From Phycisphaerae bacterium (GTDB lineage Bacteria > Planctomycetota > Phycisphaerae > UBA1845), in assembly GCA_029260075.1 (NCBI GenBank), contig JAJDDY010000065.1, forward strand, positions 34,255 to 98,254: 64,000 bases of DNA, in the 5' to 3' direction. Numbering within the stretch: the stretch's first letter is position 1; each line of letters begins with the position of its first letter. Shown piece after piece: positions 7,754-49,865 of this stretch. The notes beneath the pieces are model-generated. The model did not search any database. It was not told where the DNA came from and saw only the letters and a list, made by a program, of their open reading frames with translations. The position numbers and the translations under genes are program-made.

Positions 7754-10084
7754 TCAATGGGAGCGACCTGACCGGCCCGAAGATAGCAAGAGGTTGCCCA
7801 TGATCGTAGCTGCGTCGGCCGGTTCGTACCCGACGCAGTGCAGGCAGGTATGGCCGGTAGCGCCGCACGTCAGATCGTACGGAGAGTGGATCATCACCCA
7901 CCGCCCCCCGGATCTCAGACCGAACAGAAGCGGCCGATCGAGCCACGCGGGAACGCCGCCGCCAAGCCGGCGCCGGTAGTTCAAATCGGAGAGCGATCCA
8001 ACCTGCGCCGGGGCAACCATTCCCGTCATGATCGGATCGTCGCGGGGAATGGCCTGCCATTCCCTACCACCAGCAAAATCGGCCGCGAACGCACGAAAAG
8101 CCTCGTCAAACGCTTGGCGTCCGCAACAGGCTGACGAAATCAACATGCCGCCGCGCCCGAAGTAGTCGCTGAGCGCCCTGCGCTCATCGTCCTTGAGCGG
8201 CTTGAACGTGTGCCCCGTGAGCCATAGCACGTCCGCGTCGCAGTGGGCCAAGTCAGACAGTGCTACCGAATTCATCTCACGAACACCGAGACCGATTCTA
8301 CGTGATAACTGTTCGTTCAGCCGCTTGATCGCATACGGGTCCGACCACCAGTCCCCACCGTGTCGAACCCGTGCGATCGACACGGTCCGAGTGACGTCCG
8401 TTGTGCCGCTCGGTGGCCCGTCGATTCGTGCCGGCGGAGTTCGCTCGAACGTCGCGAAGGCCAACACATTTCCGGCGATCCGAAACAATCGCTCGTAGCG
8501 CGCGGACAGGTCTTGCTGCCACGCACAGCACGCGCTGCCTGATAGCAGGATCATCGGCGTGCGACACCCGTCACGAAACACCAAGACATCCTTGCCAGCG
8601 CGGGCTTCGTCGTGCATTGACCAAACCGGATGATCCTTGGGCGGTACGTCCATTTCGAGGTGAGGAAAAACCGTGGCCACCATCCCTTTGAATCCGTCCA
8701 CAAAAATCTGACTAGAGCAACAGGCTGAGGCGATGATTGTGCCACCGCTGTACACGTAGCGTCGAAGCTCCTGCTGCTGCACCTCGCTGAGCGCTGGCCA
8801 CTCGTGCGCTGAAACCAAAAGAATTGGCGCGTTGCCGAGTTCGCGTTCGCCGTCCCCGAAACCAACAACGTCCCACGTATACCTTGCCGTCGTCTGACGA
8901 TTCCACCAGCGGACGAGATTGGCTGCATCGCGCGGGTCGCGATTCCAATCCACGTCTTCGCCGAATCGTAGTTTGCTTATGAGCACAGGCCTACGGGTTT
9001 CGAGTAAGGCGAGAATCGCAAAGCAGCTTTCGTGAACAGTTCCCCATGACCCCTCAGCCTGCTGCCTGTCGACCAACTGACGACTTACGGCGCGAGCCCA
9101 GTCGTGTTGGCCGAACGATCGCCGCCCCGACAATGTGCCCAAGCGAGATACCAAGTGCAGGTAGAAAGCAGGGAACGGGCGATGTGGATCGGTAGCGATC
9201 GCCGCCGGGGCGACGGGAATCGAGGTGCTGTCAAAGTTCTTATCCCACCACACCCACGCGCGATCAAGGGCTTGATCAATCGCGTGCGGTTCTTTCGGTG
9301 GCAAGCCGCATTTGGCCTTGAATCGACCGTTGAAGGCGCCGGCGTCTTTGAGATGCAACTGGTCGGCGATGACCATTAAGGACGCAAGCCCGGCGGCGGC
9401 CATGCTGCGATCAGATTCAACATCCGGCAAAGAGCCGCTGGCGTCGGCCCCAACGACATAGCCCCACCCACCGTCAGTGTTCTGATGGTTCAGCCAGCTA
9501 GCCTCCGCCCGCCTCCATACTCGAGGGCTGACGTCGAAACCGGCCTCCGCGGCGGTCGCAAGCGCAGCCAGCGCGAATTGTGAATTGGACTGATCGTACC
9601 AATCCTTGGTCGGGTTGGCCCTCGACTGCCGGCCATACCCCCATGCACCCTCGTCGCTCTGTTGCTTTTCAAGAAACCGAATGTCTTCGAGAATGAGTGG
9701 CCGGTACTGACGCGCGTCAAGCGCACACCAGAGCATGAGTGTGAGTGATCGCGCGTAGACCGTCGTGACGTTGGACCGATCCAACAACGGTTGAACGCCA
9801 CGCCGCAACCGCGGATCGGTCGGTACGACAGAAGCCCGGCGCAGCGTGTAGGCGACGAGCGCCGTTTGGCCGAGGCGGAACTTCGCCTCGAACGCCCGAC
9901 TCACCCACCGACCGGATCGTCTCTGCTTTGACCAGAGGTAATCGACGCCGCGGCGGATGGCGGCGTCGACTGACGCCGTGCTGACGGTCGACGCTTGAGC
10001 TGGCGGCGACGCCAGTACGCGGCCATACATCGCTGACAAGGCCACTACGCAACAGAGAACCGCCGACGGTCGCCCAGATAGCAC
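7754..10084 (-). CDS. DUF4159 domain protein with N-terminal alpha-toroid (prenyltransferase-like) repeats
   Basis: This 776-residue exported protein starts with a signal peptide (about residues 1-27). Residues 35-340 carry squalene-cyclase/prenyltransferase-like alpha-toroid repeats such as GAWGYGRQ, DGGWGYV and GSWGTVHES. The C-terminal half appears to hold two copies of a DUF4159-like flavodoxin fold. One runs from about 390 (NAPILLVSAHEW, then GGTIIASACC); the other from about 600 (DADVLWLTGHTF, then GGMLISSACC). Function is unknown; DUF4159 proteins in planctomycetes are probably periplasmic. The GTG start at 10084 has GGAGG six bases upstream. It lies 73 bp downstream of the DUF3179 selenoprotein on the same strand, suggesting co-transcription. 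Confidence 0.85.
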   Translation of the reverse strand: MLSGRPSAVLCCVVALSAMYGRVLASPPAQASTVSTASVDAAIRRGVDYLWSKQRRSGRWVSRAFEAKFRLGQTALVAYTLRRASVVPTDPRLRRGVQPLLDRSNVTTVYARSLTLMLWCALDARQYRPLILEDIRFLEKQQSDEGAWGYGRQSRANPTKDWYDQSNSQFALAALATAAEAGFDVSPRVWRRAEASWLNHQNTDGGWGYVVGADASGSLPDVESDRSMAAAGLASLMVIADQLHLKDAGAFNGRFKAKCGLPPKEPHAIDQALDRAWVWWDKNFDSTSIPVAPAAIATDPHRPFPAFYLHLVSRLGTLSGRRSFGQHDWARAVSRQLVDRQQAEGSWGTVHESCFAILALLETRRPVLISKLRFGEDVDWNRDPRDAANLVRWWNRQTTARYTWDVVGFGDGERELGNAPILLVSAHEWPALSEVQQQELRRYVYSGGTIIASACCSSQIFVDGFKGMVATVFPHLEMDVPPKDHPVWSMHDEARAGKDVLVFRDGCRTPMILLSGSACCAWQQDLSARYERLFRIAGNVLAFATFERTPPARIDGPPSGTTDVTRTVSIARVRHGGDWWSDPYAIKRLNEQLSRRIGLGVREMNSVALSDLAHCDADVLWLTGHTFKPLKDDERRALSDYFGRGGMLISSACCGRQAFDEAFRAFAADFAGGREWQAIPRDDPIMTGMVAPAQVGSLSDLNYRRRLGGGVPAWLDRPLLFGLRSGGRWVMIHSPYDLTCGATGHTCLHCVGYEPADAATIMGNLLLSSGRSGRSH

Positions 10085-10157: not shown

Positions 10158-10979
10158 CTACGGAGTGAGACCACGTTCTATGGTTTTCTTCGATCCCAGT
10201 AGTACTGTGGTGTTGGGATGCATTTTTCGCCATTCGCCGAGTTTGACGATGGGCACCTCTTCGATAATGGGAATCGATTCGCCCTTGCGCGGACCGGAAA
10301 TCGCGGTCCAGCCTTTGTCGTCGAACGGATACCAAAGGCTTTCCGTCCTGCGGTCGAAGAGGATGAAGACGTCCTTGTAGACGTAACCGCTAACGCCGAA
10401 CTCATCTACTTGCTTACCCTTGTTGTCACGGCCGTGAACCACGGCCAGTCGTGCGAGCGGTCACCAGCCGACTGTAACGGGTTTGCCCCTGAACTTGTCG
10501 TTCACGACCTCGTGGTGATCGAGCAGGCCGATGGGGTACGCGCGAGCCACGCCCTCGATGAAGAATCCCATAACGCTCAGTTCGTCGTTGGTCTTGGCGG
10601 CCTCGGTTTCGCGATAGACACTCTTGCCGAGTGCGAGCAGGCGTGGATCATCCGGCGAGACGAACAGCGGATCGTCGATCGCACGAATCGTGTCTTTGCC
10701 GATACCGAATTGGAGCTTTTCCGTCGGGATGACGGAATCCGTAAAGTCGTACCAAGGTGCCCCAGGCGTGCTGGGATCAGATCGCCGCGGGCCCGCATAG
10801 ATATACGTCTTGCCACCTTCGTGTTTGACTTTCTTACTATCGGGCCCGAGCAGCCCTCGGTACCTCTTTTCGCTATGCTGACTACCCTGTGCGTGGACGA
10901 TACACGGGATGCTGCCGAGCATGGCAAGCGAAAGTAACCAATTCGGGTTCGTTCTTCTGTTTCGTTTGTTTGCGTGCAT
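10158..10979 (-). CDS. DUF3179 family protein, probable selenoprotein (in-frame UGA read as Sec173)
   Basis: Two minus-strand segments in the same frame, 10464-10979 and 10158-10460, join across one TGA at 10461-10463 into a 273-residue protein. The N-terminus has a signal peptide ending near VHAQG. Upstream of the UGA are the DUF3179 features DDPLFVSPDD, GVARAYPIGLLDHHEVVND and GKPVTVGW. Downstream are PLARLAVVHGRD, FGVSGYVYKD and LFDRRTESLW. In this family the position of the UGA is the first Cys of the VTYCPLC-like motif, so UGA replaces a conserved Cys. A SECIS-like hairpin follows (10430-10446). Biochemical function of DUF3179 is unknown to me; an exported Cys/Sec motif suggests redox or metal chemistry. 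A simple nonsense mutation is the alternative, but conservation is intact on both sides. Confidence 0.85.
10430..10446 (-). promoter_or_regulatory. bacterial SECIS-like hairpin of the DUF3179 gene
   Basis: On the minus strand, GGCCGTG, loop GTT and CACGGCC form a perfect 7-bp stem. The loop starts 21 nt after the UGA and its first base is G. An outer CAC/GTG pairing across a bulged GACT extends it. This fits the bacterial consensus as I recall it (loop 3-14 nt with G in the first two bases, 16-37 nt after UGA). Confidence 0.75.
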
Positions 10980-13907: not shown

Positions 13908-16547
13908 TTAGCCGCCGTCGCACCCGTTGGGTCTGAGCGTCTGGTCCCAACCCGGATCGGACGTGCCGCCTCCAGTGAGCAGGTCAATCACGCACAGCAT
14001 GTCAGCCGGCGTTACCTCACCGCTCCGATCGCAATCGACGCTGTAGATGCCCCACTCGGGGACAACCGTCCCGCGCAGAACCTGCACCAGCGCCACGACA
14101 TCGCCCACGTCGGCCACGGCGCCACCTGAAACATTGGCCGGGTGCGAGGTGAACGTGCCGGCGCTGACCACGCCGCCGTCGCTTGTGTAAATGATTTTCG
14201 TGACAGCACCCGGCGTAATTGGCCGTGCTAAGTCGACAGTCCACGTCGCCGACCCCGACTCGCCGGAGACGACACGCTCCACAAAGTTCGCCGAAAGACT
14301 TGCCGGCGATTCGCAAAGTGAGAAGCAGTCGGCAGGTATCTGCGTTACTGGAACGCCGCCAAGCCTGGCTTCGATCACGAACGAATCCAACACCCGACCG
14401 GAACCACCCGCTCCGGATGGCCTCCGAGCATCAACAACACCATCCGGCGGATCGAGCCAGGTGATGTCGACTTCGGGGCAGGGTTCGCGGCACGTCTCGC
14501 ACAACTCTAACGCCGCAGTAACGCACAATTCGTCCCAATGAGTTTCGCAACAGAAGAAGTCAACTTGCGTGCAGACTTTCGTGCAGCAGGATGCATCGGA
14601 ACAACCTCGGGACACCAGACAGTTGCCACCACCTTCCCGACACACAACGTCACAGGACACCGGATCGCAAATCACGTCGCCGGAGCAGGGCTGCCCGTCC
14701 GAAGTGCCTCCGACGCAAAGAACGATTTCTTCGGTGCAGCAGCTCCCCTCGCTTCCCAAGCAAATGCCGACACTACATCTTTGCCCGTTCAAGTTGCAGG
14801 ATTGCCCTCGCTCGAACTCGCGCGGGTCAGTTACGGGCTCGATAAAGAGACATTCGCGTTCCGTTATATCGAGGCAAGAATCGTCGTACGTACAGCACGC
14901 CGATGTGCCGCACGGCTTGCCGCCGTTGAAGGTGAACGGACCCGGACAATCGCCGCCGGGGCAGTCAACCTGCCTCGTGCAGGGTTGACCGTCTCGGTTG
15001 CCGCCGTCGCAGGTGCTCTCGCATACGGAATTCTCCTGCCACAGGTCGGGAAACGCGCAGTTCATTTGCGCCCTCTCACGACAGACCGAGTCGCCGACGC
15101 AGGTTCCCTCCTGACAATTCTTGAGGCCAAGCGGACATGCACAGTCCCCATCGCCCACGCAGGAAAGACCGTCGAACGGTCCACCGATGCACGTCCGGTT
15201 GTCCGTGTGGATCATGTCGCAACAGGCACCGGTCGGCGGTGGGCCTTGGCAATGGATTGTTATCTCAAATCCGCCGCCGCAACCCGTGACATTCGCCGGA
15301 AAGCTCCAACCACCCTCGCCAAATTCCGCGAGTACATCCTGTGTTCCACCAAGCGCAGGGCTGACGCAGGTGGCTATGGGTCCGACCTGTTTGCTCGATG
15401 TACGAATGACCATCCAATAGTTCTGCTGGGTTAGTAGAATCGGCGTATCGAACTCAGCGCGAACGAGTTGGACGTCATCACCAATGATGCTCGACTGGCG
15501 TACCGTGCCAGGGATCAAGCCGCTCACTTCCGGATCAACGTCGCTCAGGTTGGTATGCAGTTGGGTTCGAACCACACCAAGACTGCCTAGCGACTGGCCG
15601 CGAAACCCCACGGTGTATCCGACCATGTTGCACCGATTCGGGCTTACCGAAAGCGAAATTTGCTCGGCCACAAGGCGCGTCCCGTCGGGTGTGAATGGCC
15701 TACCTCCTTGGTTGCTGTTCACGTACGTCGGGTAGGTGTCGACGCAAGTTCCGCGTACGTACAACTCGACGTGGAAGCTGGAGTGCGGGGCGGCGGGGAA
15801 TCCACCGACCGTGGTGGTGCAGGACCCGCCTGGGAAATCAAAGCTGTCGGCGGAGAACCCGACAAGTGCGGGTCCGGCAAGAAACACGCCGGCGTTTTCG
15901 CGGCTGAAGGTCAGCGCGAGGTAGAGCGCGTTGGGAATGACAACGCTGGTGGATTTGGGGATGACGACCTCGACGTCGTAGACGCCGTTGTCGGGGGCCT
16001 CAAAAAAACCGGTGGTGCCGGGGATGGGTACGGGTGCGGTCGAACTTCCCGGGCAGGTTTCATACAGGGCATACTTGACGGCGTACGGCCCGGCGCCGCT
16101 GAGGTCGCCTTGATTATCGCCCGAGACGCGAAAGACATATCGATCGAGCATGCAAGTCGAAGCGCCGGTCGTGATGATGTCATCCGCAATCCGTGCCCCG
16201 GCCGCCGGGCTGAAAACGTGCTGCCCGAGTGTGTTGCTGTAGGCAAGCCGAGACGTCGACACCGGACCGAACTCACGGAGTTGCATGCCGCCAGACGTAG
16301 TGCCCGCGATGAGACGAACGCGGTGCGCGCTCGAACCGCCGGGCTGCGTCAACGCTTCCGGCGGAGCCATCTTAGCTGATTGAATTGCTCGGCGAACCGG
16401 AGTCTCACTCGCGGCGCTCGATGCGACCGGCTGAGCACACGCTTGAGAAAGTGAGATGAGAGCGAACACCACGGCAAGCTCGAAACCGAACGCGACGCCA
16501 AGCGATGACCTGCGACCCATGCGGTCTTTCCGACAATCGATGCGCAT
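13908..16547 (-). CDS. large secreted Cys-rich protein with dockerin-like C-terminus
   Basis: This 879-residue exported protein has a signal peptide near residues 10-40. The first 400 residues are beta-rich without recognisable motifs. A Cys-rich middle (about 415-690) repeats units such as GACCDM, CIGGPFDGLSC, CTRQVDCPG and FCCETHWDELC; the last type is common in secreted proteins of planctomycetes. Near the end is a dockerin-like segment, VDCDRSGEVTPADMLCVIDLL, preceded by a degenerate first loop. It is probably a surface or extracellular protein whose calcium-loop tail mediates attachment. The ATG at 16547 has AGGGGGA about six bases upstream; the 27 extra in-frame codons before it are not needed. 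Confidence 0.8.
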   Translation of the reverse strand: MRIDCRKDRMGRRSSLGVAFGFELAVVFALISLSQACAQPVASSAASETPVRRAIQSAKMAPPEALTQPGGSSAHRVRLIAGTTSGGMQLREFGPVSTSRLAYSNTLGQHVFSPAAGARIADDIITTGASTCMLDRYVFRVSGDNQGDLSGAGPYAVKYALYETCPGSSTAPVPIPGTTGFFEAPDNGVYDVEVVIPKSTSVVIPNALYLALTFSRENAGVFLAGPALVGFSADSFDFPGGSCTTTVGGFPAAPHSSFHVELYVRGTCVDTYPTYVNSNQGGRPFTPDGTRLVAEQISLSVSPNRCNMVGYTVGFRGQSLGSLGVVRTQLHTNLSDVDPEVSGLIPGTVRQSSIIGDDVQLVRAEFDTPILLTQQNYWMVIRTSSKQVGPIATCVSPALGGTQDVLAEFGEGGWSFPANVTGCGGGFEITIHCQGPPPTGACCDMIHTDNRTCIGGPFDGLSCVGDGDCACPLGLKNCQEGTCVGDSVCRERAQMNCAFPDLWQENSVCESTCDGGNRDGQPCTRQVDCPGGDCPGPFTFNGGKPCGTSACCTYDDSCLDITERECLFIEPVTDPREFERGQSCNLNGQRCSVGICLGSEGSCCTEEIVLCVGGTSDGQPCSGDVICDPVSCDVVCREGGGNCLVSRGCSDASCCTKVCTQVDFFCCETHWDELCVTAALELCETCREPCPEVDITWLDPPDGVVDARRPSGAGGSGRVLDSFVIEARLGGVPVTQIPADCFSLCESPASLSANFVERVVSGESGSATWTVDLARPITPGAVTKIIYTSDGGVVSAGTFTSHPANVSGGAVADVGDVVALVQVLRGTVVPEWGIYSVDCDRSGEVTPADMLCVIDLLTGGGTSDPGWDQTLRPNGCDGG

Positions 16548-17078
16548 TTCGTATCCCCCTACTCGTTCAAACAAGTCGGAAGTATCGCAATATCGCCGCT
16601 CGAAACACGCGCACGCGACTGAAGCCATACAGTTTCAAACTGGGCGATCGCAATGACATGATACCCGAATCTTGGCCGACTTGTGGCGGCTTGGCCGCCG
16701 GCCCCTTGGTTCCCCCGAACCTGTTCACGTTCAAACTGGATGCCAGCCACTCGCACCCGACGCCGTTGGTTCTTCCCCAGAGTCCAATAATCGTAGGCAA
16801 CATTTGCACGCACTTCCACACGATCAATCTATCCAACAGGGCTGCCGCCCATGAATGGCGGGCGTTCCCTGCCGGCGACAACAGGAATGGTTGAACGAAA
16901 ACGGTACGCTCTCTATCAGCCTGCGGCACTGGCGGGTATTCTGAACTGTCGTCGTCCGCTCGGGGGTGACAACGACCGATGTCTTCGTCGGCAGGGAAAA
17001 ATGTCGACGGTTCGGCGCGTGGAAGTGGGTTCCACGCTTGTTCAACAAGTGAACAATCATTCGATAATGCGAGGTGTG
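16548..17078. other. divergent intergenic region
   Basis: It separates the minus-strand Cys-rich protein from the plus-strand hydrolase and must hold promoters for both. The hydrolase frame is open back to 16851, but that part shows no homology. No dispersed repeat was found. Confidence 0.5.
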
Positions 17079-38263: not shown

Positions 38264-39370
38264 TCAGCCTGTGCGTTTACCCTGGCATTTGAGATCGCCC
38301 ATAGGCCCCGAGTAGGAACCGTCAACCTTGTCACCGTCGACGGTGCCTTTGAAATCCAACGAAGGACCGCCGCCGATGGACCGCTGAAAGCTCAGCTTGT
38401 TGCCAGTAAGCTTCAGGTCGGTCATGGCCATGTCCATACCCTGACTGGTCCAAGTGCCCGTGAGCACACCATCCTTCGCACGGATCACCATGACAGCGGG
38501 TATGTCGTTTCCGCTAAACTTGGTCGTCATGTCCCAACTGCCGACGATCGCCTTGGTCGACGCGGCGTCGTGACGAATCTTCGGACGGCGAGCGTCCGTG
38601 GTCGAGTCATCTTTCTTGGTTTTCGGTATGACCAGCTCCGGCTCTACACCAGTCTCTTTGTACGACGCCAACCACGCCTTAGAGGCGTTGAGGGCCGGCT
38701 TGTAACCCCACGGTCCGCGCTTGCCGGCCACAGCAAGTCGGCCGTCCTTGCGAACAAGGTAAATTCGATCCGGATGTGCTTTGTATGCCTTGTTGACCGA
38801 ATTTTCCATATCGTCGACAAGCGTCGGTATGGTCAAACTCTTGTCCTTCATCAAACGTTCGGCGGTAGTGCAGCGCTGACCGTACGTTTTGTGCTTGGTG
38901 ATGTTCATTTCCTTTGCGTACCCGACCGGCCAACTGCTGTCTTTGGCGTGCGCCTCGGTAATGTAAACGAGACGGAAGTCAGCAATGTCATTATATGTCA
39001 GGTATATCTTTTCCATTTCAGCAACCTGCTGAAGAAAAGGCGGTCACGTGTAGCTTCCGAAGAACAGCATTACGGGCTTCTTACCTCGATAGTTTGCAAG
39101 ATCCATCTTGGACTTGCCGTCGAGTGACGCCAACTCGAACGTGGGTGCTTCATCTCCGACCTTCGGCGCCCCATCGTCCTTGCTCATCATTTCGCGCATG
39201 CGCTTGCGCCGCTCCGGCGTCATCTCCGGGCGACCGGAGCCGTGCCGAGACGGCTCCGCCTTCTTTTCATCCGCGACTTTCGCGCCGTCCGGCGGCGCCG
39301 CAGCGCACCCCGCAACCAATGCGGCTCCGACCCAAAGCCCCGCAAGGCCCATCCAATACTTTGTCATCAT
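38264..39370 (-). CDS. iodothyronine deiodinase-like selenoprotein (in-frame UGA read as Sec109), lipoprotein
   Basis: Same-frame segments join across TGA at 39044-39046 into 368 residues. A lipoprotein signal (VGAALVAGC) and charged linker precede a thioredoxin fold starting VGDEAPTFELASLDGKSK. The active site reads FFGSYT-U-PPF, against NFGSCT-U-PPF in animal deiodinases. Deiodinase landmarks continue: RLVYITEAHAKDSSW, YGQRCTTAERLM, DDMENSVNKAY, PDRIYLVRKDG and RGPWGYKPAL. About 95 C-terminal residues form a separate beta-rich domain (IVGSWDMTTKFSG to the end), absent from animal enzymes. AAGGGA precedes the ATG. Known bacterial homologues are redox selenoproteins; the natural substrate is unknown. 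A SECIS-like hairpin follows the UGA. Confidence 0.93.
39008..39039 (-). promoter_or_regulatory. bacterial SECIS-like hairpin of the deiodinase-like gene
   Basis: On the minus strand CTTTTC-TTCAGCA, loop GGT and TGCTGAA-(ATG)-GAAAAG pair fully except for the three-base bulge, 13 bp in all. The loop starts 17 nt after the UGA and opens with G. Spacing and loop fit the bacterial SECIS consensus. Confidence 0.88.
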
Positions 39371-47704: not shown

Positions 47705-49123
47705 CTACAGGCAACGCAAGAATGCTACGACGTCTTTCTTTTCTTGCTCCGTCAGCTTCACTTCTGTAATCATGTTGAAGAACTCTACCGTGTCCTCCAA
47801 CGTCAAGAGACGTCTGTCGTGAAGATACGGTGGAGAATCTTTGATACCGCGCAGAGGGAACGTCTTGATCGGACCGTCACCGACAGCCATTCTGCCGTTG
47901 ACCATCTGCGGTCTGAAGAACCGTTCGGTCTGAAGGTTGTGCATCAGATTGTCGGTATAGTAGGGCGCAGGATGACATTCAGCACACCGCCCCTTACTGA
48001 AGAACACGTCTTGCCCCCTCAATTCAGATTCCGTGGCCGCGTCGCGCCTTAGCTTGCCGAAGATGTCAAGCTTCGGCGCCGGTGGAAAGTCGAACAGTTC
48101 CTCCATCTCGGCCATGAAGTGGACCTGACTTCCTCGGTCAAGGACGTTGACGCCCTTCTTCGCAGCGATGACATGATCGCCGTCGAAATACGCGGCCCGC
48201 TGCTCAAACTCCGTGAAGTCCTCGACCGTCTTCAATGCTCGTTGCGACCCGAACAGTCGTTGAATGTTCACTCCACGCAACGTGGGCGTGTCCAAGCCGT
48301 GACGAAACTCCTGCGGTCTAATGTCGCCAACCAGGTGCGTGGCGGCGTTGGTATGTCCGTTGACGTGACAATCGAGACAAGTAACACCTCGGTGTGGGCG
48401 TGCGGAACGGCGGTCTTCCGTCTGGTTGTACTGCTGTTGCGGGAAAGGAGTCACGAGCAAACGAAGCCCCTCAATTTGCTTTGGGTTCAGAATGCCGTTG
48501 AAGAGCTCGTAGAAGTTGTCGATCGTGACAACCTTGCCCTGCGAGACGTCACCAAGGTCAGGCCTTGTGGTGAGGTAGATTGCCGGCGGGTAGTCCGGTA
48601 GGAAATGCTTGGGCAGATCGTAGTCCAAGTCGAAGCGTGTCAGGTCGCGGGCTTCCTGCCGCTTGATCTCGTCGATGTGATGCTGTGGAAAAACCATACC
48701 GCCTTCCGCGTGATTCGGGTGCGGAAGCGGTAGGAATCCTCTCGGGAACAGATCCCTCTCGCGAATTTCTTGCGCCGTCATTGTGGCGAGTGCATCCCAT
48801 GTCACGCCCGACGGAAGCTTCACGCGGACGCCTGATTGCACAGGCTTTCCACGGGACATGGTGACTGCTTTCGCGGGACGGTCGGTGAGGTCGTAGCGCT
48901 CGTTCAGCAAATCCGTAGCGCGCTGCATCACCTGCTTCTTGGCCGCCGCCATCCGAACCATCGTGTCCTGGAAGGAATCTTTGATCGCGACGGGGGCGTA
49001 ACTCGTGGCGGTTTGGGCTACGGCGCTGGTCAGAAGCAATTCGAACGCGAAGACTACGATGGTTGCCCCAAGGACGCTCGCCGGCGCCCACGAACGCTGT
49101 CGTTCCTGGTCTCGTTTCATCAT
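47705..49123 (-). CDS. exported diheme cytochrome c (cytochrome B6 / peroxidase-like)
   Basis: This 472-residue protein has a signal peptide (about 1-37, ending SAVAQ). It carries two heme motifs: CLDCH near residue 250 and CAECH near 390, followed by YYTDNLMHNL and, near the end, LRGIKDSPPYLHDRR, typical of MauG/cytochrome c peroxidase relatives. It is likely a periplasmic electron-transfer or peroxidase-type protein; planctomycete versions are often named cytochrome B6. AAGGAAG lies five bases before the ATG at 49123. The frame is open to 49357 but that part is not coding. It is monocistronic. Confidence 0.82.
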   Translation of the reverse strand: MMKRDQERQRSWAPASVLGATIVVFAFELLLTSAVAQTATSYAPVAIKDSFQDTMVRMAAAKKQVMQRATDLLNERYDLTDRPAKAVTMSRGKPVQSGVRVKLPSGVTWDALATMTAQEIRERDLFPRGFLPLPHPNHAEGGMVFPQHHIDEIKRQEARDLTRFDLDYDLPKHFLPDYPPAIYLTTRPDLGDVSQGKVVTIDNFYELFNGILNPKQIEGLRLLVTPFPQQQYNQTEDRRSARPHRGVTCLDCHVNGHTNAATHLVGDIRPQEFRHGLDTPTLRGVNIQRLFGSQRALKTVEDFTEFEQRAAYFDGDHVIAAKKGVNVLDRGSQVHFMAEMEELFDFPPAPKLDIFGKLRRDAATESELRGQDVFFSKGRCAECHPAPYYTDNLMHNLQTERFFRPQMVNGRMAVGDGPIKTFPLRGIKDSPPYLHDRRLLTLEDTVEFFNMITEVKLTEQEKKDVVAFLRCL

Positions 49124-49865
49124 TTTTTCTTCCTTGTCTTGGTATGTGGAGGTTCGTTCTATTGACGCTTGGTACACGATGGCAAGTAGGTCAGGTTGAT
49201 ACCCCACTTTTCCTATGATCGACGATCTCTCCTCGATGTCAGGAAGATCGAATGCACTCGACCCGGGTCGATTCATGTCAAGGCAACCCGGACTGACGCG
49301 ACGATGCAAGTTCGACCACGGCCACAACCCGGGCCGATCGACGAATCCGAGTTTCACCGCGTTGAGGTGAGCATCGTCTTGACACCGACGGCATACGACC
49401 TCGTTTCGAATCCACTGTTCCCAACTTCGACGCTACCAGGTGCTTCAACGTGGCCGCGACCGGTGTTGGTCGGTCACGCCTCAATCGCGACCGCTTCGCG
49501 CAAGACAATCGTGCACGAAGCGCCCCGTGATCTGTTGTCGTCGTCCACATGTCGACGCACCGGTACAGTATCAACCGCCCCGACTTGCGCCAACCGCAAA
49601 GGCAGGTCATCGGCCTGTCCGCCCGACTGATCACACGCGTCCTACCGCCCGCGTGATGCCCGCGTCAACGGCGTACGACCGAGCAATTCACACGGTACAC
49701 AAAGAGCCAACAGCGTAGTGAAAACCGTATGAGTTGCTCCGGCGCGCGAGGGCGGATAACTTCTCCGGCGACGAGTCGCCACCTGACCTTCGGCGGGGTA
49801 TGGGGCGTGCTCGACCGCCGACCGGCCTCTGTTCGGCGGGCTCGCTTTGCGGATGCCGTTGCGTT
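49124..49865. other. long divergent intergenic region
   Basis: It lies between the minus-strand cytochrome and plus-strand carB. The carB frame is open back to 49734, but that part is Arg-rich and unlike any CarB N-terminus. I see no RNA or repeat; an attenuator for carB cannot be excluded. Confidence 0.45.

Follow-up and report, generated by a model that had tools for sequence, protein, structure and literature searches.

Genes and features of the window

The window, i.e., the whole stretch of 64,000 nucleotides analyzed, harbors a DUF3179 gene and a deiodinase-like gene, both on the minus strand and both with an in-frame UGA. The relevant features are as follows.

10158..10979, minus strand: DUF3179 coding sequence of 273 aa with UGA at codon 173 (frame and PF11376 match)
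10461..10463, minus strand: in-frame UGA, predicted selenocysteine (Sec) 173 in VGW-U-PLA (column U/C/S/N/H/D in relatives)
10890..10979, minus strand: N-terminal hydrophobic segment, predicted signal peptide, residues 1-30 (hydropathy)
10429..10447, minus strand: predicted bacterial SECIS hairpin UGGCCGUG-GUU-CACGGCCG (covariation in 100 relatives)
38264..39370, minus strand: deiodinase-like (PF00837) gene with in-frame UGA, possible redox partner (PF00837 match)
39044..39046, minus strand: in-frame UGA of the deiodinase-like gene, GSYT-U-PPF (frame)
39017..39033, minus strand: SECIS-like hairpin UUCAGCA-GGU-UGCUGAA, loop 17 nt after the UGA (stem-only calculation)

The DUF3179 gene starts with an ATG at 10979-10977 and stops with a TAG at complement(10158-10160), on a strand that an earlier description of the locus, made from the sequence only, had omitted. 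The frame contains a single internal TGA at complement(10461-10463), codon 173, and the protein context around it is KPVTVGW-U-PLARLAVVHGR. Residues 96-263 match PF11376 (E 5e-33, 115.2 bits against a gathering cut-off of 27), and this match runs unbroken across the UGA. These results bear out the sequence-only reading, in which the frame crosses the TGA with DUF3179 conservation on both sides. The match spans profile positions 2-150 of 292, and the window protein is therefore a half-length form of DUF3179. No NCBIfam model matched it. As that reading had also proposed, the UGA replaces the first Cys of the family; in the alignment, it sits exactly at the first Cys of the DUF3179 CPLC motif. 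Residue 176, three after Sec, is Ala, such that the motif is UxxA without the second Cys. Residues conserved in both the Cys and the Sec forms are H156, E157, N160, and D161 before the site and G198, D209, W216, and G229 after it.

The N-terminus is hydrophobic (mean hydropathy of 1.95 over residues 17-28), and a segment of this kind is present in 116 of 121 proteins, namely the window protein and the 120 homologs listed. The window protein is therefore likely exported, with a putative cleavage site guessed from the AxA-like VHA-Q.

About 70 nt downstream, a gene at 7754-10084 (minus strand) encodes a protein with DUF4159 and squalene-cyclase-like repeats. Across 20 orthologous contexts, this gene was not among the frames found at least twice. 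When these contexts (5.5-19.9 kb) were compared with the first 24 kb of the window, the neighborhood of the DUF3179 gene was not conserved: apart from frames overlapping DUF3179, one window frame recurred, in two of the 20. Elsewhere in the window, the open frames at 13908-16628 (minus strand, 906 aa) and 47705-49357 (minus strand, 550 aa) have no Pfam match at E <= 0.001.

Conservation of the UGA among DUF3179 homologs

The database contains 477 homologs of the DUF3179 protein. Among the 120 matches listed, 116 end exactly at GW, just before the UGA site, where the remaining four have S, S, C, and S. The 116 include the window's own shortened product (P0002), and it is the position of these protein ends that points to a UGA read as stop. 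The second half of these proteins is consequently missing from annotation; a query with the part after the UGA returned three proteins only, so this half is hardly annotated in the database. The close homologs P0066 and P0101 are named as Phycisphaerales and Planctomycetes bacteria.

Across the order (114 genomes), each of the 44 matches at E <= 1.3e-32, found in 35 genomes, carries one TGA, and two also carry a TAG. Among the genomes sampled from the phylum, 54 of 392 have a UGA-carrying DUF3179 match. A scan of named genomes found UGA in six of seven DUF3179 loci, and the named records with a UGA include Zixiibacteriota, candidate division GN15, and Neomarinimicrobiota. From these three sources, 164 distinct DUF3179 sequences were extracted. 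The Sec column contains U in 113, C in 29, S in nine, N in eight (one row being misaligned), H in three, and D in two; these shares are not frequencies because sampling was partly chosen for TGA (107 of the 108 TGA-bearing matches from the order and phylum were fetched, and non-TGA matches only partly). All 107 fetched TGAs fall on one alignment column. The alignment of homologs that the sequence-only reading had suggested thus has both Cys and UGA at this column, in addition to S, N, D, and H. In eight sequences, all from family f3 of the order (L176-L183), the motif is N/S/D-PLC, with the first Cys replaced by Asn, Ser, or Asp and the second Cys kept.

A quick tree of 170 sequences placed the window protein inside a supported set of 53 (46 with U, four with C, and three with other residues). 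Across this tree, 13 changes between U and not-U are needed, and at least eight are forced by well-supported branches. For 24 orthologs from the order compared with the window, the median pN/pS was 0.42 before the UGA and 0.31 after it. Three close pairs were added because synonymous sites were near saturation, and their dN/dS after the UGA was about 0.09, 0.04, and 0.03. The domain is under stronger constraint after the UGA than before.

The second Cys of the motif is absent in 62 of 112 readable UGA sequences, which have A, V, D, S, T, L, or E there. This loss of the neighboring Cys argues against a simple Cys/Sec pair. Considering both positions, a Cys or Sec is retained at one or both of them in 157 of 163 sequences, and at neither in six.

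A covarying hairpin downstream of the UGA

The hairpin that follows the UGA, GGCCGUG-GUU-CACGGCC, has 7 bp, extended to 8 bp by an outer U-G pair, and spans 14-32 nt after the UGA. The apical loop lies 21 nt past the UGA, and the stem begins after 13 nt (the 7-bp core after 14). A 7-bp hairpin with a G-first loop of 3 nt had been noticed earlier, and this part holds; the statement that it starts 21 nt after the UGA fits the loop rather than the stem. In the bSECIS model, according to the rules in section 5 of PMC13188914, the loop has 3-9 nt with a G in the first two positions, the stem has 4-16 bp, the loop is 16-37 nt from the UGA, and the energy is <= -7.5 kcal/mol. With the loop GUU, 8 bp, a distance of 21 nt, and -12.2 kcal/mol, the window hairpin qualifies as a bacterial SECIS by this rule-based check, which the earlier reading had proposed.

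Taken alone, the window hairpin is not above chance in comparison with dinucleotide shuffles (z -0.01) or with synonymous recoding (p 0.09). Its significance comes from the relatives, in which it is conserved and covarying. The survey included 112 of the 113 UGA genes, one being dropped for N bases. A rule-based hairpin at <= -7.5 kcal/mol was found in 95 of 112 UGA genes, compared with two of 29 Cys genes and seven of 22 others, and 17 of the 112 UGA genes have none at this energy under the rule applied. Hairpins significant against synonymous recoding (p <= 0.05) were found in 65 of 112 UGA genes, two of 29 Cys genes, and none of the 22 others.

One common register was found in 95 of the 112 UGA genes, 83 of them at <= -7.5 kcal/mol. 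The covariation alignment comprised 100 of the 112 genes, i.e., the 95 in the shared register and five with the best rule-based hairpin elsewhere or absent; the remaining 12 genes differ in register or loop size, each with a hairpin at <= -7.5 kcal/mol. In these 100 genes, 97.0% of the cells of the 7-bp helix are paired (74.2 when shuffled and 24-44 when slid), double changes occur at seven of seven pairs with 142 doubly changed cells (39.5 when shuffled), and the covariation score is 0.628 (0.221 when shuffled). None of 500 shuffles, which ignore relatedness, equaled the helix on those four measures, whereas 11 did so on the number of pair types. RNAalifold recovered the same helix unaided. 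The window hairpin itself contains a compensated pair, with G-C where most close relatives have U-A.

Selenocysteine machinery and the use of UGA

The assembly (4.92 Mb, 93 contigs, 96.9% complete) contains one tRNA-Sec above the family cut-off (69.4 bits, gathering 47), selA (570 bits), selB adjoining selA (338 bits), and selD (370 bits). The complete set of Sec genes that the sequence-only reading had named for a search is therefore found in this genome. The selD gene (L018, G000:C36:12227-13150) is itself a predicted selenoprotein gene with an in-frame UGA in SCAG-U. UGA also serves as an ordinary stop, ending 12 of the 22 long frames picked in the window, and a change of the genetic code was rejected on this ground. 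A second DUF3179 gene in the same genome (L021, G000:C83:65236-65631) has an in-frame UGA in SW-U-PSE and is shorter and lipoprotein-like, with an LSGC that we take to be lipobox-like. Its hairpin is in the same register as those of the other UGA genes.

In the order, selA is above the cut-off in 93 of 114 genomes, including 28 of the 35 with Sec-DUF3179; the other seven are all less than 90% complete. Because selA is this common, its presence fails to separate the genomes with and without Sec-DUF3179 among these 114. In eleven genomes of family f3 (G005, G010-G012, G014, G018, G020-G022, G026, and G030), SelA matches the profile in at least two pieces, with an insertion-like break near position 260.

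Sec decoding, which had earlier been called plausible, is supported by the machinery, the U/C occupancy of the homologous column, and the covarying hairpin. Judged from these sequence data, the UGA of the window DUF3179 gene is almost certainly read as selenocysteine.

A deiodinase-like selenoprotein gene and its fusions to DUF3179

The second gene with an in-frame UGA, already noticed in the sequence-only reading as deiodinase-like, is located about 27 kb from the DUF3179 gene and matches PF00837 (E 2.7e-33, 115.7 bits against a cut-off of 27). The protein also matches the solved type III deiodinase 4tr3 (phmmer E 2.6e-21). We take the context GSYT-U-PPF to be the deiodinase one, which places the UGA at the catalytic position. 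The loop, G position, and distance of the hairpin that follows fit the bSECIS model; its energy of -6.6 kcal/mol, calculated for a bare 7-bp stem, misses the limit of -7.5.

Two relatives join both domains in one frame, with a UGA in each domain (L048, 686 aa; L201, 855 aa). Both have the layout of a deiodinase-like domain (GSYT-U-PPF), spacer and TPR-like stretches, and DUF3179. Their Pfam matches are to PF00837 (E 1.9e-30 and 7.8e-30, respectively) and PF11376 (E 2.9e-25 and 6.6e-30, respectively). SECIS-like hairpins follow all four UGAs (-11.2 and -7.8 kcal/mol, and -9.2 and -7.7 kcal/mol). The window deiodinase-like protein is 61% identical to the fused deiodinase-like domain. The double-UGA fusion, read in two genomes, suggests that both domains would work together in redox chemistry. 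A candidate third fusion, in G002, was read from frame and contig positions only, and a by-eye comparison at the phylum level found no pair of deiodinase and DUF3179 matches within 3 kb on one contig. Other fusions of Sec-DUF3179 have DUF547 in front (L049, in genome G103) or PDZ behind (L078, in genome G216). In five genomes of the order (G070, G071, G072, G080 with a selA piece, and G085), a deiodinase-like UGA gene is located about 2-2.5 kb from selA on the same contig.

The two genes also tend to co-occur in counts that are uncorrected for phylogeny. Of the 35 genomes of the order that have Sec-DUF3179, 23 carry a deiodinase-like gene above the cut-off, compared with 14 of the 79 that do not (Fisher p 9e-7); inside the window's family, the counts are 19 of 28 and eight of 23, respectively (p 0.026). 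In the phylum, where the figures cover selA-positive and selA-negative genomes alike, the corresponding counts are 39 of 54 and 69 of 338.

Comparison with described selenoproteins

The sequence-only reading regarded the gene as a probable new selenoprotein family. This claim was rejected, as tables in the reviews PMC9312934 (2022) and PMC13188914 (2026) already list "DUF3179 domain-containing protein, UxxC/T" as a selenoprotein, and PMC9312934 credits it to Zhang and Gladyshev 2007. A further paper, in the part available, has a DUF3179 protein in a table only. Selenoproteins have also been reported from planctomycete genomes. The window protein resembles the reviewed Sec-DUF3179 in belonging to the same Pfam family (pfam11376) and in having an in-frame UGA as Sec. 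In addition, UxxC/T fits a Sec at the first Cys of the family, as in the window, when the column is placed from the motif. However, the window protein has Ala 176 rather than Cys or Thr at +3, i.e., UxxA. PMC9312934 assigns proteins with another Sec motif to a separate subfamily, so the window protein is filed as a variant rather than as a member of the UxxC/T subfamily. The parts of PMC9312934 and PMC13188914 available give no third residue besides Cys and Thr for DUF3179 and describe neither a fusion nor SECIS covariation of this family.

The second UGA gene of the window belongs to another known kind, the bacterial deiodinase-like selenoprotein (PF00837), which the tables of the reviews list as UxxC. 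In contrast, the window and fusion forms are UPPF, without Cys at +3, and two relatives join the domain to Sec-DUF3179 in one frame. Double selenoproteins listed in PMC13188914 include MduS, MbdU, and methyltransferase/UXPK-star; L048 and L201 are alike in having two Sec per polypeptide, as counted there, whereas none of the double or fusion entries in the part available pairs deiodinase-like with DUF3179. In the same part, no mention of UxxA, Rieske, or a deiodinase-DUF3179 fusion was found, nor was this fusion found in the accessible text of PMC2398784. The records retrieved from the literature on Rieske and selenoprotein, deiodinase-like and fusion, and PF11376 contain nothing pointing to such a fusion. 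Three features were not found in print: the UxxA motif with no neighboring Cys (other sequences having V, D, E, S, or L in place of the A), its spread through the phylum, and the double-UGA fusions.

Fold comparison

In a structural look-up for DUF3179, Rieske domains ranked first, a weak hint of a Rieske-like fold. A Foldseek search against PDB gave no match at E <= 0.001, and no PDB relative was found by sequence, a profile search giving only matches to acetyl-xylan esterases at E 0.08. The ligand motif of the Rieske cluster is CxH...CxxH, and this pattern is absent from the window protein and from the conserved DUF3179 columns. A reading of D154-x-H156-x16-U173-x-x-176 as Rieske ligand spacing was dropped, as a low-confidence HHalign alignment placed CPLC on Rieske loop 1.

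Proposed mechanism and alternative explanations

The favored reading, which we consider probable, is that the window gene encodes a sole-selenol redox enzyme, with Sec inserted by the organism's own machinery through the downstream hairpin and with a deiodinase-like reductant. In this model, the Sec machinery of the genome would read the UGA at codon 173 through the hairpin just downstream, and the protein would be exported to the cell envelope, as its hydrophobic N-terminus suggests. Sec173, which is probably the redox nucleophile, would be the sole reactive group; its selenolate would attack an oxidized substrate in the envelope and thereby become oxidized. Candidate substrates include peroxide, sulfenic acid or disulfide, or a halogenated compound. 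Because no DUF3179 enzyme activity was found in the literature searched, both the substrate and the direction are guesses. Because a second Cys that could resolve the oxidized Sec is lacking from the loop, an external reductant would be needed to regenerate the selenol. The best candidate would be the thioredoxin-fold deiodinase-like selenoprotein, fused to DUF3179 in two relatives and about 27 kb away here; as the redox partner of Sec-DUF3179, it is put forward tentatively. The S, N, D, and H at the Sec column of some relatives, and the six of 163 sequences with neither Cys nor Sec at the two positions, are not what a strictly catalytic selenol would predict for every member.

Alternatively, Sec may be the redox nucleophile but the deiodinase-like protein not its partner, both being just part of a selenium-rich envelope proteome. 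This explanation has an appreciable chance, short of being the expected one. It accords with the distance between the genes in the window, the rarity of fusions, and the lack of a conserved DUF3179 neighborhood, and shared dependence on the Sec machinery inflates co-occurrence. Nevertheless, the association persists among the 93 selA-positive genomes of the order (18 of 28 with Sec-DUF3179 and 12 of 65 others, p 3e-5; uncorrected for phylogeny), and genomes with only non-Sec DUF3179 lack it in the phylum (15 of 62 compared with 93 of 330). Moreover, the C-terminal domain of the window deiodinase-like protein recurs in five DUF3179 proteins with 29-50% identity.

Another explanation, which seems unlikely, is that the UGA encodes a Sec that binds a metal or cofactor or has a structural role, rather than acting as a catalytic nucleophile. 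The column takes C, U, S, N, D, and H, several being metal ligands, and the second Cys is kept in 15 of the 21 sequences with neither Cys nor Sec at the first position. Furthermore, the conserved H156, E157, N160, D161, D209, and H254 could add ligands, and the top-ranked Rieske domains have [2Fe-2S] loops. On the other hand, no complete conserved ligand set is present, the Rieske pattern being absent as described above; P0003 and P0006, with Ser and Ala at the two positions, would have no strong ligand there; and the fusion of two UGA-containing domains, one of them with a thioredoxin fold, is suggestive of redox chemistry.

That the UGA is a genuine stop, with an N-terminal half of 172 aa as the functional product, is highly improbable: public gene callers end 116 of the 120 matches listed there, but constraint is stronger after the UGA than before, the conserved core of G198, D209, W216, and G229 lies past it, and the hairpin after it covaries. 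A sequencing error or decaying pseudogene, conceivable in a draft assembly of 93 contigs, has a negligible chance because 113 sequences, drawn from many genomes, share a TGA at this column. Both truncation and error were rejected based on column conservation, the covarying hairpin, and selection after the UGA.

Returning to the sole-selenol redox enzyme, a bolder version, which we regard as a long shot, is that DUF3179 has a fold related to that of Rieske proteins but no cluster, with Sec on the loop that holds the iron-sulfur cluster in true Rieske proteins, and forms with the deiodinase-like protein a two-selenol electron relay in the envelope. If true, such a relay would pass electrons in either direction without a partner Cys, would be widespread in one phylum, and would sometimes be a single double-Sec protein. 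Taken together, these findings describe a little-studied selenoprotein family that is widely used in one phylum, in which 54 of the 392 genomes sampled have UGA-carrying matches. For DUF3179 and the deiodinase-like family, both of unknown function, the double-UGA fusion provides each with a partner that can be tested.
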